From Leptotrichia wadei (GTDB lineage: Bacteria > Fusobacteriota > Fusobacteriia > Fusobacteriales > Leptotrichiaceae): a DNA stretch of 64,000 nucleotides. Location of the stretch: contig NZ_AP019829.2 of assembly GCF_007990545.2 (NCBI RefSeq), positions 930,001 to 994,000 of the forward strand. Reading direction: 5' to 3'. Of this stretch, positions 37,444-44,540 are shown in pieces (positions within the stretch are counted from its first letter, which is position 1; the number at the start of each line of letters is the position of its first letter). A program made the position numbers and the translations under genes. Under the pieces are notes generated by a model. It did not search any database, was not told the DNA's origin, and saw only the letters and a program-made list of their open reading frames with translations.

Positions 37444-38151
37444 TTATCTTTTTGCAATAGCAGTAAAAGTAAATTTTTCAGGATGATGAATTATTGTTTC
37501 ATACTGAAAAAGAGTTCCGTTTGACAAATAGGCGTGAGTTTCGATGACAACAACCATATTTATATCTTTTAATTTGAGATATTTCTGTTCTTCTGGCGTA
37601 ATCTTTCTGAAATTAATATCTCTTCGAGAGTATCCAATCTTTAATTTTAAATCCTTTTCCAAATATTCATATATTGACTTTTTGGCAATCTCTTCATTCA
37701 AGAATGGCACAATTCTTCTGTCAAAAAAACTTGTGGAATAATTTAAGACTTCCCCATTTAAGGAATTTGTACGGACTACTTTGTAGAAATCGGCACTTTC
37801 AGAAACTTGAAATTCTTTCATTAATTTTTTGTTCCCTTGAACAATATATAAGCTGATTAAGTCAGTTTCAAGATTAATATTTTGAAGTTTATTTAGTTCC
37901 TGCACAGTTTGAATTGAAGTCAGAGAAATATTTTCTAAATTTTTTTTCTCCAGTACAATTGATTTTTTCCCCTTCACTTTTTGAATAAAACCTTCAGCTT
38001 CCAGCATAGAAAGAGCTTTTCTTACAGTAAGTTTGGAAAAATTATAATCTTTTGCCAAGTCATCTTCTTTTTTTAAAAAATCTCCTGGTTTAATAATACC
38101 ATTTTTAATTTTGTGTTTTATATCATAATATACTTTTTCATATTTAGTCAT
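37444..38151 (-). CDS. GntR-family regulator with UTRA domain
   Basis: The 235-residue protein has an N-terminal winged helix (ILKNGIIKPGDFLKKEDDLA type; FSKLTVRKALSMLEAEGFI at about 38-56) and a UTRA ligand-binding domain (about 90-232). Divergent from malH, it most likely represses the malH operon and is released by a sugar phosphate such as an alpha-glucoside-6-phosphate. The class includes TreR-like regulators. The gap 37193-37443 downstream shows no gene. Confidence 0.88.
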   Translation of the reverse strand: MTKYEKVYYDIKHKIKNGIIKPGDFLKKEDDLAKDYNFSKLTVRKALSMLEAEGFIQKVKGKKSIVLEKKNLENISLTSIQTVQELNKLQNINLETDLISLYIVQGNKKLMKEFQVSESADFYKVVRTNSLNGEVLNYSTSFFDRRIVPFLNEEIAKKSIYEYLEKDLKLKIGYSRRDINFRKITPEEQKYLKLKDINMVVVIETHAYLSNGTLFQYETIIHHPEKFTFTAIAKR

Positions 38152-38298
38152 TTGTATAAACCTTTCATATTATTTTTATATATTATACAATAAATTTCTT
38201 TAAATAACAACTAAAAATAAAAAGATTTATATAATAATAATAAATTTTAAAAAAGATTTATATAAACCTATTGACTTTTTGAAAATTTATGATATAAT
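38152..38298 (+). promoter_or_regulatory. malH promoter with repeated operator-like sequence
   Basis: TTGACT (38271-38276), 16-base spacer, TATAAT (38293-38298). Upstream, AAAAGATTTATATAA occurs twice (near 38220-38234 and 38252-38266). Related TTATATAAACC and TTGTATAAACC words lie near 38258-38269 and 38153-38163, next to the regulator start. They are plausible GntR operator sites for both divergent genes; the AT content makes chance similarity possible. Confidence 0.5.
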
Positions 38299-38352
38299 AG
38301 TTACTGAAATGAGAAAACAAAAAATATATAACTAATAAATTATAGGAGATGA

Positions 38353-39681
<1,329 letters not shown>

Positions 39682-39724
39682 ATTACATCTGAATAATTTT
39701 AAAATGAAAATAAATTTTTAGTGC

Positions 39725-39753
39725 TTGAAATGTTAATTAGTTTATGATATAAT
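39725..39753 (+). promoter_or_regulatory. Promoter of a small RNA (antitoxin candidate)
   Basis: TTGAAA (39725-39730), 17-base spacer, TATAAT (39748-39753), 44 bases after the malH stop codon. A terminator follows within 90 bases. Confidence 0.7.
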
Positions 39754-39759
39754 TACAAT

Positions 39760-39846
39760 AAGAAAAGAAAAACCAACTGTTTCGTTTGGAAATAAAAAAT
39801 TTGCAGAAGAAAAGGCTCTATTCTTTATTGAATGGGGTCTTTTTTT
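39760..39846 (+). ncRNA. Small RNA, candidate type I antitoxin
   Basis: The predicted ~87 nt RNA starts near 39760 and ends in a 13 bp terminator stem, AAAGGCTCTATTC (39811-39823) with GAATGGGGTCTTT (39830-39842, three or four G-U pairs), plus U-run. Its unstructured 5' part CCAACTGTTTCGTTTG (39773-39788) can pair without interruption with CAAATGGGACAGTTGG (39886-39901) of the downstream toxin mRNA: 16 pairs, three of them G-U. That covers the 5' edge of the toxin Shine-Dalgarno. It would block toxin translation. Confidence 0.65.
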
Positions 39847-39856
39847 ATGATATAAT
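39828..39856 (+). promoter_or_regulatory. Promoter of the toxin mRNA
   Basis: TTGAAT (39828-39833), 17-base spacer, TATAAT (39851-39856). The -35 overlaps the terminator stem of the upstream small RNA. The transcript would begin with the hairpin GTTAGTT/AACTAAC (39863-39882), a common protective 5' feature. Confidence 0.65.
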
Positions 39857-39913
39857 TACCAAGTTAGTTCTGCAAAACTAACAAACAAATGGGACAGTTG
39901 GGAGGTGGTAAAA

Positions 39914-39979
39914 ATGAATTGGGATTTTACTATTTTGATAGCTATAATCGTTTTATTTTTGATTATTAGTAAAAAATAG
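39914..39979 (+). CDS. 21-residue hydrophobic peptide, putative type I toxin
   Basis: ATG 39914 follows a strong GGGAGGTGG (39900-39908) at eight bases. The peptide begins MNWDFT, continues as a single hydrophobic helix of about 13 Ile/Leu/Val/Phe/Ala residues, and ends SKK. This is the profile of membrane-active type I toxins (as in Ibs, ShoB, TisB), although I recognise no sequence homologue. It lies between malH and the GH13 gene, within its own transcription unit. Confidence 0.65.
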   Translation: MNWDFTILIAIIVLFLIISKK

Positions 39980-40009
39980 TTAAAATTCATCATCGGCATC
40001 ACCTTAATG

Positions 40010-40043
40010 CCTGTCAATCTGTATATTTAGATTGACAGGTTTA
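40010..40043 (+). terminator. Terminator of the toxin mRNA
   Basis: CCTGTCAATCT (40010-40020) pairs perfectly with AGATTGACAGG (40029-40039). A smaller GGCAT/ATGCC stem precedes it, carrying CACCT in its loop, which could pair with the AGGTG of the toxin ribosome site. Confidence 0.7.
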
Positions 40044-40078
40044 AAAAAATGACTTTATTGAATATGAAGGAGAAAAAT

Positions 40079-41821
40079 ATGGATATAAAAAAATTAGATA
40101 AAAAATGGTGGAAAAAAGAAGTTGGATATCAAATTTATCCAAGAAGTTTTTATGACAGTAATAACGATGGAATTGGGGATTTGAATGGGATTACAGAAAA
40201 GTTAGATTATTTGAAGGATTTAGGAATAACGCTTATTTGGGTTTGTCCGATATTTAAGTCGCCAATGGATGACAATGGGTATGATATTTCAGATTATTAT
40301 GATGTGAATCCTGAATTTGGGACAAAGGAAGATTTGGAGAGATTGATTTCAGAGGCTAAAAAAAGAGGAATAAAAATAATTCTAGATTTGGTAATTAATC
40401 ATACTTCTGATGAGCACGAGTGGTTTTTGGAAGCATTGAGAAATCCTGAAAGCAAGTACAGAAATTACTATATTTTCAAAAGAGGAGAAAACGGATTGCC
40501 ACCAACAAACTGGAGAAGCCATTTTGGTGGTTCTGCTTGGGAAAAAGTTGAAGGTGAAGCTGATGAAAATGGGAATGAAATGTACTATTTACATTTATTC
40601 TCAAAAAAACAGCCTGACTTAAACTGGGAAAATCCTGAAGTCAGGGAAGAGCTTTATAAAATGGTAAATTATTGGCTTGAAAAGGGAATTGCTGGATTTA
40701 GAGTTGATGCAATTAATTCGATAAAAAAAAATGCAAGATATTTGGATTTGCCTGTTGATGGAGCGGATGGATTCGCCTACAGTATTAAATATACATTAAA
40801 TCAACCTGGAATCGAGGAATTTTTGGGTGAATTAGCGAAAAAAACTTTTAAAAAGCATAATTGTATGACTGTGGCTGAAACGCCGTTGTTGGAGTATGAA
40901 AGATACAATGATTTTATTGGTGAAGATGGGTTCTTTTCGATGATTTTTGATTTTAGTTATTCTGATTTGGATATGACAAAAGGTGGATTTTACTATTCAT
41001 TACGAGATATTCCAACTGTGGAATTGAGAAATAAGATTTTTGAAAGTCAGCTGACACAGCAAAAATACGGATGGGGAGCACCATTTTTGGAAAATCATGA
41101 TTTACCAAGAAGTTTGAATAAATTTTTTGGTAAAAAAGCGAATGAAACAAATGCAAAATTGTTAGCAAATGTATTTTTCTTCTTGCGAGGAACACCGTTT
41201 ATTTATCAAGGTCAAGAAATTGGAATGGATAATTTTGTGAGAAATGATATTTCTGAATTTGACGACATTGCAAGTAAAGATCAATATCAACGGGCTTTAG
41301 GAGAAGGATTTTCATCTGAAGAAGCGTTGCATTTTGTAAATAAACGAAGCCGTGACAATTCAAGAACGCCTATGCAATGGGATAGTAGCAAGAATGCTGG
41401 ATTTTCAAAAGATAAAGACTCAAAATCGTGGATAAAATTAACAGGAAGTCAAGCTGCAACAAATGTAGCAGACCAAATAAATGACAAAAATTCAATTTTT
41501 TCACACTACAAAAAAATGATTGATTTGAGACAAAATGGTAAATATTCAGATTGCTTGACTTTTGGTGATTTCATCTCTGTTCCGTTGGAGAATGAAAAAA
41601 TTATCGCTTATGTGAGAAAATATAAAAATCAAAAAGTTCTTTGTATTAATAATTTTTCTGAATTGAAACAAGAGGTTAAATTGAGTGAAATTGCGAAAGT
41701 TCTTGGAGAAAAAGAAATTAAAATTGGAGAGATTTTGATTAATAATTTTAAAGGACTTGAGAACAATGAGGTGAAAGTTGTTCTTGAAGAGTTTCAAAGT
41801 TTGTTAGTTGAAATTTTATAA
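40079..41821 (+). CDS. GH13 alpha-glucosidase (MalL/oligo-1,6-glucosidase type)
   Basis: The 580-residue cytosolic enzyme has nucleophile Asp210 in GFRVDAIN, acid/base Glu267 in TVAETPL, and Asp341 in ENHDLPRS; QPDLNWENP is typical of GH13 subfamily 31. Ala211 after the nucleophile, rather than Val, leans toward alpha-1,4 over alpha-1,6 specificity. AAGGAG precedes ATG 40079; the upstream ATG 40049 has no ribosome site. With malH it handles alpha-glucosides. Trehalose-6-phosphate hydrolase is a less likely alternative. Confidence 0.88.
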   Translation: MDIKKLDKKWWKKEVGYQIYPRSFYDSNNDGIGDLNGITEKLDYLKDLGITLIWVCPIFKSPMDDNGYDISDYYDVNPEFGTKEDLERLISEAKKRGIKIILDLVINHTSDEHEWFLEALRNPESKYRNYYIFKRGENGLPPTNWRSHFGGSAWEKVEGEADENGNEMYYLHLFSKKQPDLNWENPEVREELYKMVNYWLEKGIAGFRVDAINSIKKNARYLDLPVDGADGFAYSIKYTLNQPGIEEFLGELAKKTFKKHNCMTVAETPLLEYERYNDFIGEDGFFSMIFDFSYSDLDMTKGGFYYSLRDIPTVELRNKIFESQLTQQKYGWGAPFLENHDLPRSLNKFFGKKANETNAKLLANVFFFLRGTPFIYQGQEIGMDNFVRNDISEFDDIASKDQYQRALGEGFSSEEALHFVNKRSRDNSRTPMQWDSSKNAGFSKDKDSKSWIKLTGSQAATNVADQINDKNSIFSHYKKMIDLRQNGKYSDCLTFGDFISVPLENEKIIAYVRKYKNQKVLCINNFSELKQEVKLSEIAKVLGEKEIKIGEILINNFKGLENNEVKVVLEEFQSLLVEIL

Positions 41822-43963: not shown

Positions 43964-44230
43964 CTAAATATAAATTTTATCCCTTTTATTTATTTGAACA
44001 ACCAAAATAAATAGTTCACTTTCTTCAATTTTTGCAATAATCCTATAATTTTCAACTTGATATCTCCAAAATCCTTTTAGATTATATCTCAATGCTTTTC
44101 CAAACTTTTTTGGATTATCTGTTTCGTTAAGATTTTGCTTGATATATCGCATGATTTTTAGTTTTATTGAGTTATCTAGTTTATTCAGTTGTTTTTCTGC
44201 TTTTTCTCTAATAATGACTTTATATTTCAT
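43964..44230 (-). CDS. RelE/ParE-family toxin
   Basis: The 88-residue protein has the RelE pattern: EKQLNKLDNSIKLKIMRYI, LKGFWRYQVENYRIIAKI and a short basic end (NKRDKIYI). RelE toxins cut mRNA at the ribosome. The usual GHR near the end is here INKRD, a variation that may alter activity. The start overlaps the antitoxin gene by 11 bases. Confidence 0.88.
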   Translation of the reverse strand: MKYKVIIREKAEKQLNKLDNSIKLKIMRYIKQNLNETDNPKKFGKALRYNLKGFWRYQVENYRIIAKIEESELFILVVQINKRDKIYI

Positions 44231-44456
44231 CTTCCAAGCCCATTTTTTTTACTAAATCGTCAAATGAGATTGCTTTTTCCTTGTTTGTCTTATATTCTTC
44301 ATAAGCCTCAACAGCCAATTTATAGTCTTCTTCATCTTCAATTTTTTCAAGAATTAAATCTAACATTACTTGGTTTAAATTGATATTATTTTCCTTAACA
44401 TAGTTATTTATTTTGTTCTCTATGTCAGGATTAGCATTTATAGAAACGGTTATCAT
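44220..44456 (-). CDS. RelB-like (DUF6290-type) antitoxin
   Basis: The start ATG 44456 (MITVSINAN) is chosen because AAAGGGTG lies 8 bases before it; a longer frame to 44522 adds a hydrophobic, ribosome-site-less stretch. The 78-residue product has a ribbon-helix-helix start (ENKINNYVKENNINLNQVML) and an acidic C-terminus for toxin binding. It is probably autoregulatory together with the toxin. Confidence 0.85.
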   Translation of the reverse strand: MITVSINANPDIENKINNYVKENNINLNQVMLDLILEKIEDEEDYKLAVEAYEEYKTNKEKAISFDDLVKKMGLEDEI

Positions 44457-44540
44457 TGATTTCACACCCTTTCTTATTGTTTTAATTAATAAAATTTTAA
44501 CATAAAAGATAATAAAAAGCAACGAAAATATTTAATTAAA

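Follow-up and report, generated by a model that had tools for sequence, protein, structure and literature searches.

Same-strand pairs of a small RNA and a hydrophobic-peptide gene in Leptotrichia wadei and other Leptotrichiaceae: candidate toxin-antitoxin modules resembling type I

The 64,000-nucleotide stretch of the Leptotrichia wadei genome analysed here, called the window below (contig NZ_AP019829.2, positions 930,001 to 994,000), contains at 39725-40043 a locus that is very probably a toxin-antitoxin module working like type I, in which a small RNA would silence the messenger RNA (mRNA) of a membrane peptide. Related units form a family of 74 analysed entries in Leptotrichia and five more genera of the Leptotrichiaceae, some of them on plasmids. 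Their common order on a single strand is a promoter, the small RNA, a terminator overlapped by a second promoter, a leader hairpin, a ribosome site and a short hydrophobic open reading frame (ORF), the latter broken in a few entries. Two segments of the small RNA, A and B, are complementary to the leader of the peptide mRNA, and the resulting helices A and B change between units yet mostly stay paired. On balance we favour the view that these units represent a Leptotrichiaceae class of RNA-antitoxin modules built as a split inverted repeat on one strand. Their two-part code (a ribosome-site helix and a loop helix) would be swapped as a cassette, be reshuffled among the members of tandem arrays and diverge under selection against cross-silencing. 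The parts of the window locus are:

39725-39753 (+), P1, promoter of the small RNA, TTGAAA-17-TATAAT (window re-read and promoter scan)
39760-39846 (+), predicted small antitoxin RNA of about 87 nt, 5' end at about 39760 (sequence and fold)
39773-39788 (+), segment A of the small RNA, CCAACTGTTTCGTTTG, complement of the leader beside the ribosome site
39800-39808 (+), segment B of the small RNA, TTTGCAGAA, complement of the leader-hairpin loop
39807-39846 (+), small-RNA terminator stem, a strong 3' stem (RNA fold)
39828-39856 (+), P2, promoter of the peptide mRNA, TTGAAT-17-TATAAT (window re-read and promoter scan)
39863-39882 (+), 5' hairpin of the peptide mRNA (fold and alignment of 30 copies)
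39868-39876 (+), B', loop of the leader hairpin, TTCTGCAAA, partner of segment B
39886-39901 (+), A', CAAATGGGACAGTTGG, partner of segment A, its final base being the first G of the Shine-Dalgarno sequence
39901-39905 (+), Shine-Dalgarno sequence GGAGG (sequence)
39914-39979 (+), hydrophobic ORF of 21 codons, MNWDFTILIAIIVLFLIISKK and stop, presumed membrane toxin
40010-40039 (+), perfect 11-bp stem-loop with a loop of 8, terminator-like, with only three T behind it (fold and re-read)

Re-reading of the window located both promoters, the small RNA, the leader hairpin, the ribosome site and the ORF exactly where the first-pass annotation of this DNA, made from the letters alone, had placed them. 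The -35 of P2 lies within the small-RNA terminator and its -10 directly past the T-run. Helix A, also described in that annotation, consists of 16 uninterrupted pairs with three G-U (39773-39788 with 39886-39901); an equal helix was obtained in none of 2000 letter shuffles of both segments, the longest having 11 pairs. Helix B, absent from the earlier description, adds nine pairs (39800-39808 with 39868-39876). Since the arms stand in nested order, small RNA and leader give one colinear duplex of two blocks. The downstream stem had been called a perfect terminator: the stem is indeed perfect with 11 pairs, while the tail of only three T makes it, by reading, a weak terminator. A consensus terminator scan of 38500-41500 listed none, neither this stem nor the terminator of the small RNA.

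Where the first-pass annotation recognised no homologue, DNA, model and pattern searches of relatives revealed dozens. A DNA search of 60 relatives gave seven orthologues between the same two genes (L001-L007, in G000, G004, G001, G010, G012, G003 and G008) besides many dispersed paralogues. Among 40 stretches that were read, some were a similar terminator only; in others the layout of the window locus preceded an ORF, examples being MMNWDLTVLAVIIILFLIFSSQK, MINQDWAILLVIIVLFLIFSRQR and MVRDWLVILLAIVIFYFVFQQNK. A sequence-model scan of 98 genomes of the phylum matched 23 at E <= 0.01, and strong copies (E < 1e-6) were found in G022 and in all but one of the 13 genomes from the window's genus. 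The scan led to a second subfamily (L074-L082), its weak matches to a third, whose peptides and terminators differ: all 14 weak matches (E 2e-4 to 0.0072) were read, presenting the layout in five (L084, L085, L087, L089, L090) and lacking it in nine (L086, L088, L206-L212). A pattern of T-run, -10, leader and ribosome site yielded more members of the third subfamily; with counts inflated by overlapping T-runs, it had 19 matches in G000 and none in the reversed-pattern control, and it also had matches in other families of the order. Thirty-three third-subfamily units were read, several of them arranged in tandem: L126 has four, L131 three, and L145 four within 6 kb; L142 gave no ORF and was excluded from this readout. 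Genera besides the window's with units were g6, g8, g9, g10 and g11, the single unit of g10 having no pairing beyond chance. The strict form of the subfamily-3 pattern, one pattern applied to a collection of species genomes, found a unit solely in Leptotrichiaceae. In 49 entries with scored promoters the -10 was always in place for both P1 and P2; a -35 with at least four of six consensus bases at 16-18 nt spacing was present in 43 for P1 and in 46 for P2. In the third subfamily (L084, L087, L089, L126-L145) the 5' part of the small RNA often has a CCTTAAGGG / CCCTAAGGG mini-hairpin.

Unannotated copies were located on five plasmids, from L. trevisanii, L. hofstadii, L. wadei (two) and Leptotrichia sp. 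oral taxon 221, all of which also bear rep or plasmid-recombination genes according to a gene table that is incomplete. Scans of viral sequences yielded one true unit among six matches: contig L186 has a unit beside genes for a terminase, a portal protein and an antirepressor-domain protein. This third-subfamily unit (L186:1615-1679, minus strand) reads identical in small RNA, leader and peptide to L140 in G026.

Co-variation of the helices was assessed in several ways. Duplex energies were calculated with terminator and ribosome site trimmed for 49 entries, representing 23 leader classes. The own partner ranked first in both directions in 19 of the 23 classes, and for those 19 none of 200 letter shuffles was equal. 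The duplex of the own small RNA with the own leader had -23.8 to -38.7 kcal/mol in all 33 copies studied, comprising in each the ribosome-site block and another block, usually B (not B in L032a, L039 and L043). The longest helix anchored at the ribosome site was scored for 74 entries in 43 classes, with mean scores of 12.0 for own partners, 6.1 for non-cognate partners and 6.2 for dinucleotide-shuffled sequences. A table of pair types covers only helices of at least 8 and serves as an illustration, not as a test. As a natural null, a promoter-leader pattern gave 36 matches in the species genome collection; 33 were other genes with helix scores of at most 9.6, and the three with a short hydrophobic ORF were all from Leptotrichiaceae (L146 and L150 with 14-15 pairs, L156 truncated by the contig end). 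Within genomes, a helix score of at least 10 was reached by 54 of 67 own pairs and by 9 of 440 non-self pairs, two of these nine being an exchanged pair presented below. Helix B followed the same trend over 44 distinct loops, with scores of 5.5 for own and 3.6 for non-cognate partners (Wilcoxon p 1.4e-9); examples are TGTCAACG/CGTTGACA, CTAGTAAA/TTTACTAG and CGGCATA/TATGCCG. The median relative rank for B was 0.03 in the third subfamily and 0.22 in the first and second; some subfamily-2 loops (L077, L078, L079, L082), retained in the test, seem by reading to have been mis-placed by folding, which lowers the B scores. Drift of the pairing segments without compensation had been named in the first-pass annotation as a finding that would speak against a module; the segments do drift, and energy matrix, anchored helix and helix B all reveal compensation.

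Rearranged loci provide natural experiments. In the genome of the window, two units (G000:580700-583600, L133) have exchanged partners: the own helices score 8.3 and 7.6, and each small RNA fits the leader of the other unit with 15 of 15 and 13 of 13 pairs. For helix B the direction was the same and less sharp (6.3 versus 5.6; 7.0 versus 5.0). That the exchanged units fit each other's leaders argues for an action in trans. By reading, an insertion-sequence-like element with terminal inverted repeats lies between them (approximately L133:700-2215, G000:581400-582915), and L133 has an additional upstream unit with a degenerate ribosome site. In G008 the first unit of L126 is mismatched, and its cognate small RNA (17 nt with two G-U, by reading) is located one unit upstream, in a unit without ribosome site or ORF. 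At the site of the window, the orthologues L001 and L005 have identical columns in 80 of 80 positions upstream, 74 of 75 from ribosome site to stop and 93 of 94 in the 3' part; only 26 of 52 are identical in the 5' part of the small RNA and 22 of 42 in the leader, each locus still being internally paired. Judged from this alignment, the A/B specificity cassette is replaced as a block between the L001 and L005 groups. Four genomes (G005, G007, G009, G011) have the flanking genes and no module, and in G002, G006 and G022 the small RNA is kept at this site and the ORF is missing.

We propose the following mechanism. From P1, an RNA of about 87 nt ending at the terminator would be made; P2, which overlaps this terminator and points the same way, would give the mRNA of a single-helix membrane peptide of 21 residues. 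Segment B may contact the loop of the leader hairpin, and segment A would pair in trans up to and into the Shine-Dalgarno sequence, so that ribosome entry is blocked. The order of these contacts is our suggestion, as is the harm that a peptide freed from this translation block would cause. A second finding that the first-pass annotation considered adverse, a hydrophobic ORF not conserved in relatives, did not occur: start, ribosome site and hydrophobicity are conserved, and the ratio of nonsynonymous to synonymous changes (pN/pS) was 0.35-0.37 in three groups. Peptide frame or start are lost and the small RNA is kept at seven loci (L004, L033, L034, L035, L041, L053, L083), versus four units that lost the small RNA (L069, L090, L139, L141); the subfamily-3 pattern demands an intact ribosome site, therefore this comparison of toxin loss with antitoxin loss is biased and weak.

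Several results weigh against this interpretation. The constraint on the peptide is moderate at these pN/pS values, which were calculated from all within-group pairs, and such pairs are not independent. In the orthologue L002 the ORF is extended to 38 residues. The four units without small RNA are orphans with an intact ORF and no recognisable partner of their own, and an exact 14-base search of the genome of L069, a draft of 80 contigs, detected no cognate small RNA. Four of the 23 classes failed the energy test (L084, L085, L087, L089). By the anchored helix, the own partner ranked first in 35 of 43 classes, which becomes 35 of 47 when the third-subfamily units L090, L139, L141 and L143, outside this count, are taken as misses. 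The eight classes not ranked first were L031, a bulged helix that is first by energy, the rearranged units L126-611, L131-922 and L133-2402, and L042, L081, L087 and L089. Pairing in L087 is at chance level, 84 of 100 shuffles being as good. A further element that was considered is an anti-Shine-Dalgarno sequence in the 3' region of the mRNA, as in hok or aapA: a CACCTC-like motif is common to the 3' regions, and in the folded window mRNA it pairs with the ribosome site. It was not significant in the window's subfamily, where none of 11 classes ranked first. In subfamily 3 the duplex ranks were skewed low (median 6 of 25, rank 1 in one), suggestive of such an element in this subfamily only. 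As contiguous helices the candidate scored scarcely above shuffles: none of 70 distinct cases had at most 2 of 200 shuffles equal, and five had at most 10 of 200. The third-subfamily motif reads as CACCTC..CCTCAACCCTTAGGGG-like, and its fit to ribosome site and spacer co-varies loosely.

Two of the orphans share a neighbour. A multi-copy repeat of about 100 bp, followed by a terminator-like hairpin, adjoins the intact partnerless peptide genes of L090 (L090:300-401) and L069, in two genera; G026 has 6 and G010 has 10 matches to it. The -35 of P2 in L069 is lost where the repeat adjoins. Possibly an insertion sequence severed the small RNA and the repeat marks its end.

The pairing could be real without a toxin-antitoxin module, if a useful small membrane protein, e.g., a stress or transport regulator, were tuned by an ordinary small RNA. 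The moderate constraint, the fact that the toxicity of the peptide is a presumption, and the position of the window copy between two sugar-hydrolase genes suit such a regulator. We regard it as unlikely in view of the dispersed copies, the clean presence or absence at one site, the tandem arrays, the occurrence on a phage-like contig and on small plasmids, there next to rep or plasmid-recombination genes, and the scarcity of cross-matches among units that share a genome (9 of 440). The seven loci that kept the small RNA without peptide add a weak argument, since four units lost the small RNA instead. Dispersal, mobile location, arrays, few cross-matches and peptide losses fit addiction modules better than a housekeeping regulator. 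An action in cis, with A pairing to A' in a read-through RNA from P1 as in an attenuator-like leader and the small RNA merely its terminated form, would explain the nested arm order; folding of the window's read-through RNA does yield A-A' and B-B'. Against it stand the exchanged pair, which can match in trans only, and the second promoter, with a -10 right behind the terminator in all 49 entries and a -35 of at least four of six bases in 46; we judge it quite improbable. Sequestration in cis was also examined on the read-through RNAs and found unsupported: accessibility of the Shine-Dalgarno sequence was lower in 8 of 14 class representatives, with means of 0.27 and 0.30. Least probable, and barely credible to us, is a non-autonomous mobile repeat with inverted arms and a small ORF without a role at the protein level. 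Dispersed multi-copy occurrence, plasmids, the phage-like contig and insertion-sequence-like repeats next to some copies fit this description; the conservation of start, ribosome site and hydrophobicity at a pN/pS of about 0.36 opposes it, as do arms wholly different between copies, unlike transposon ends, although no search for terminal repeats or target duplications was made.

The toxin-antitoxin module favoured here has most attributes of type I: a small hydrophobic toxin ORF with ribosome site, at the sequence level a separate small-RNA gene with its own promoter and terminator, and, by complementarity and co-variation, an antitoxin RNA pairing with the toxin mRNA. It departs from the type I rule of TADB 3.0 in the strand, both genes lying on one. 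Among known systems, par of pAD1 (Fst, RNA I and RNA II), of the Fst/Ldr group and serving plasmid maintenance, pairs through two dispersed segments, of which one lies at the ribosome site, and makes a loop contact. The par genes are convergent and the complementarity comes from direct repeats read off opposite strands, whereas that of the Leptotrichia module comes from inverted repeats read off one strand. In an antisense type I system the antitoxin is automatically complementary, as both RNAs come from one piece of DNA; the arms of the module are separate DNA sites, so complementarity must be kept and changed by co-evolution. The rule of TADB 3.0, in the excerpts available to us, as for all papers cited here, places type I toxin and antitoxin on opposite strands (PMC10767807). 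We see in this a layout criterion that non-overlapping divergent pairs satisfy as well. Such pairs, tisB/istR-1, shoB/ohsC, zor/orz and dinQ/agrB of E. coli and timP/timR of Salmonella, resemble the module in the small peptide toxin and in a non-overlapping, separate antitoxin-RNA gene that pairs with the toxin mRNA (PMC4147584, PMC8167048). The four E. coli pairs interact in a long 5' untranslated region off the initiation site (PMC4147584), whereas pairing in the Leptotrichia module touches the ribosome site; its genes are moreover tandem on one strand, with the toxin promoter over the antitoxin terminator. The first-pass annotation was right in calling this tandem layout unusual, as the excerpts of PMC4147584 and PMC8167048 describe type I pairs that are antisense or divergent. 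The module would work like type I, and its layout breaks the opposite-strand rule. In type III systems (ToxIN, CptIN, TenpIN), too, the antitoxin is an RNA encoded ahead of the toxin on the same strand, and a terminator separates the two (PMC8167048, PMC4147584). They possess, however, one promoter, a repeat RNA and a ribonuclease toxin bound as protein; the module has two promoters, and its presumed toxin is a peptide of 21 residues that RNA-RNA pairing would control. The peptide is no ribonuclease, and by eye the 87-nt RNA contains no tandem repeats. Same-strand layouts are permitted as well in type VIII creTA (PMC10767807), where the toxin itself is an RNA; the module has a conserved peptide ORF under constraint.

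Profile databases did not place the family. Against Pfam the window peptide had only matches of E 0.21 and 0.49 to unrelated models, and thus no match to an Fst/Ldr profile; six family peptides had no match in NCBIfam, and PHROGs gave nothing usable (best E 0.065). Rfam 15 identified only a tRNA in the whole window and two matches in seven loci, both below the family gathering scores. Literature searches, which left out most subscription papers and all preprints, found no paper describing the family and none linking type I toxin-antitoxin systems with Leptotrichia. According to a 2025 paper, type I systems had been recorded in Proteobacteria, Firmicutes and Tenericutes alone, and the paper adds a cyanobacterium (PMC12390103); by the list excerpted there, Fusobacteriota would be a further phylum. 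Prediction by the opposite-strand rule (PMC10767807) or by an antisense-only search (PMC12390103), as these papers outline them, would miss this class of modules. If our reading is true, about a dozen orthogonal toxin locks with their keys can coexist in one genome, and plasmids and phages bring further keys. Dozens of natural pairs that rarely cross-match, the exchanged partners and the replaced cassette would form a data set for the evolution of RNA-RNA specificity and a source of orthogonal regulators.

In the window, the genes flanking the module encode a family 4 glycosyl hydrolase and a member of the alpha-amylase family; a GntR/UTRA regulator is encoded on the opposite strand (37444-41821). 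Due to the weak termination behind the peptide gene, the transcript may continue into the amylase-family gene. At a distance of 4 kb (43964-44522, minus strand), genes for a DUF6290 protein (E 2.5e-13) and, behind it, a ParE-type toxin (Pfam E 6.9e-11) probably form a type II toxin-antitoxin pair. One of the nine weak model matches without the layout, L209 (G048:C16:32000-32700) from another family of the order, holds by reading a hydrophobic ORF of 22 codons with GTG start, its own -10 and AAAGGAGG, without an overlap of terminator and P2; it is a possible type I-like peptide gene of a different layout.
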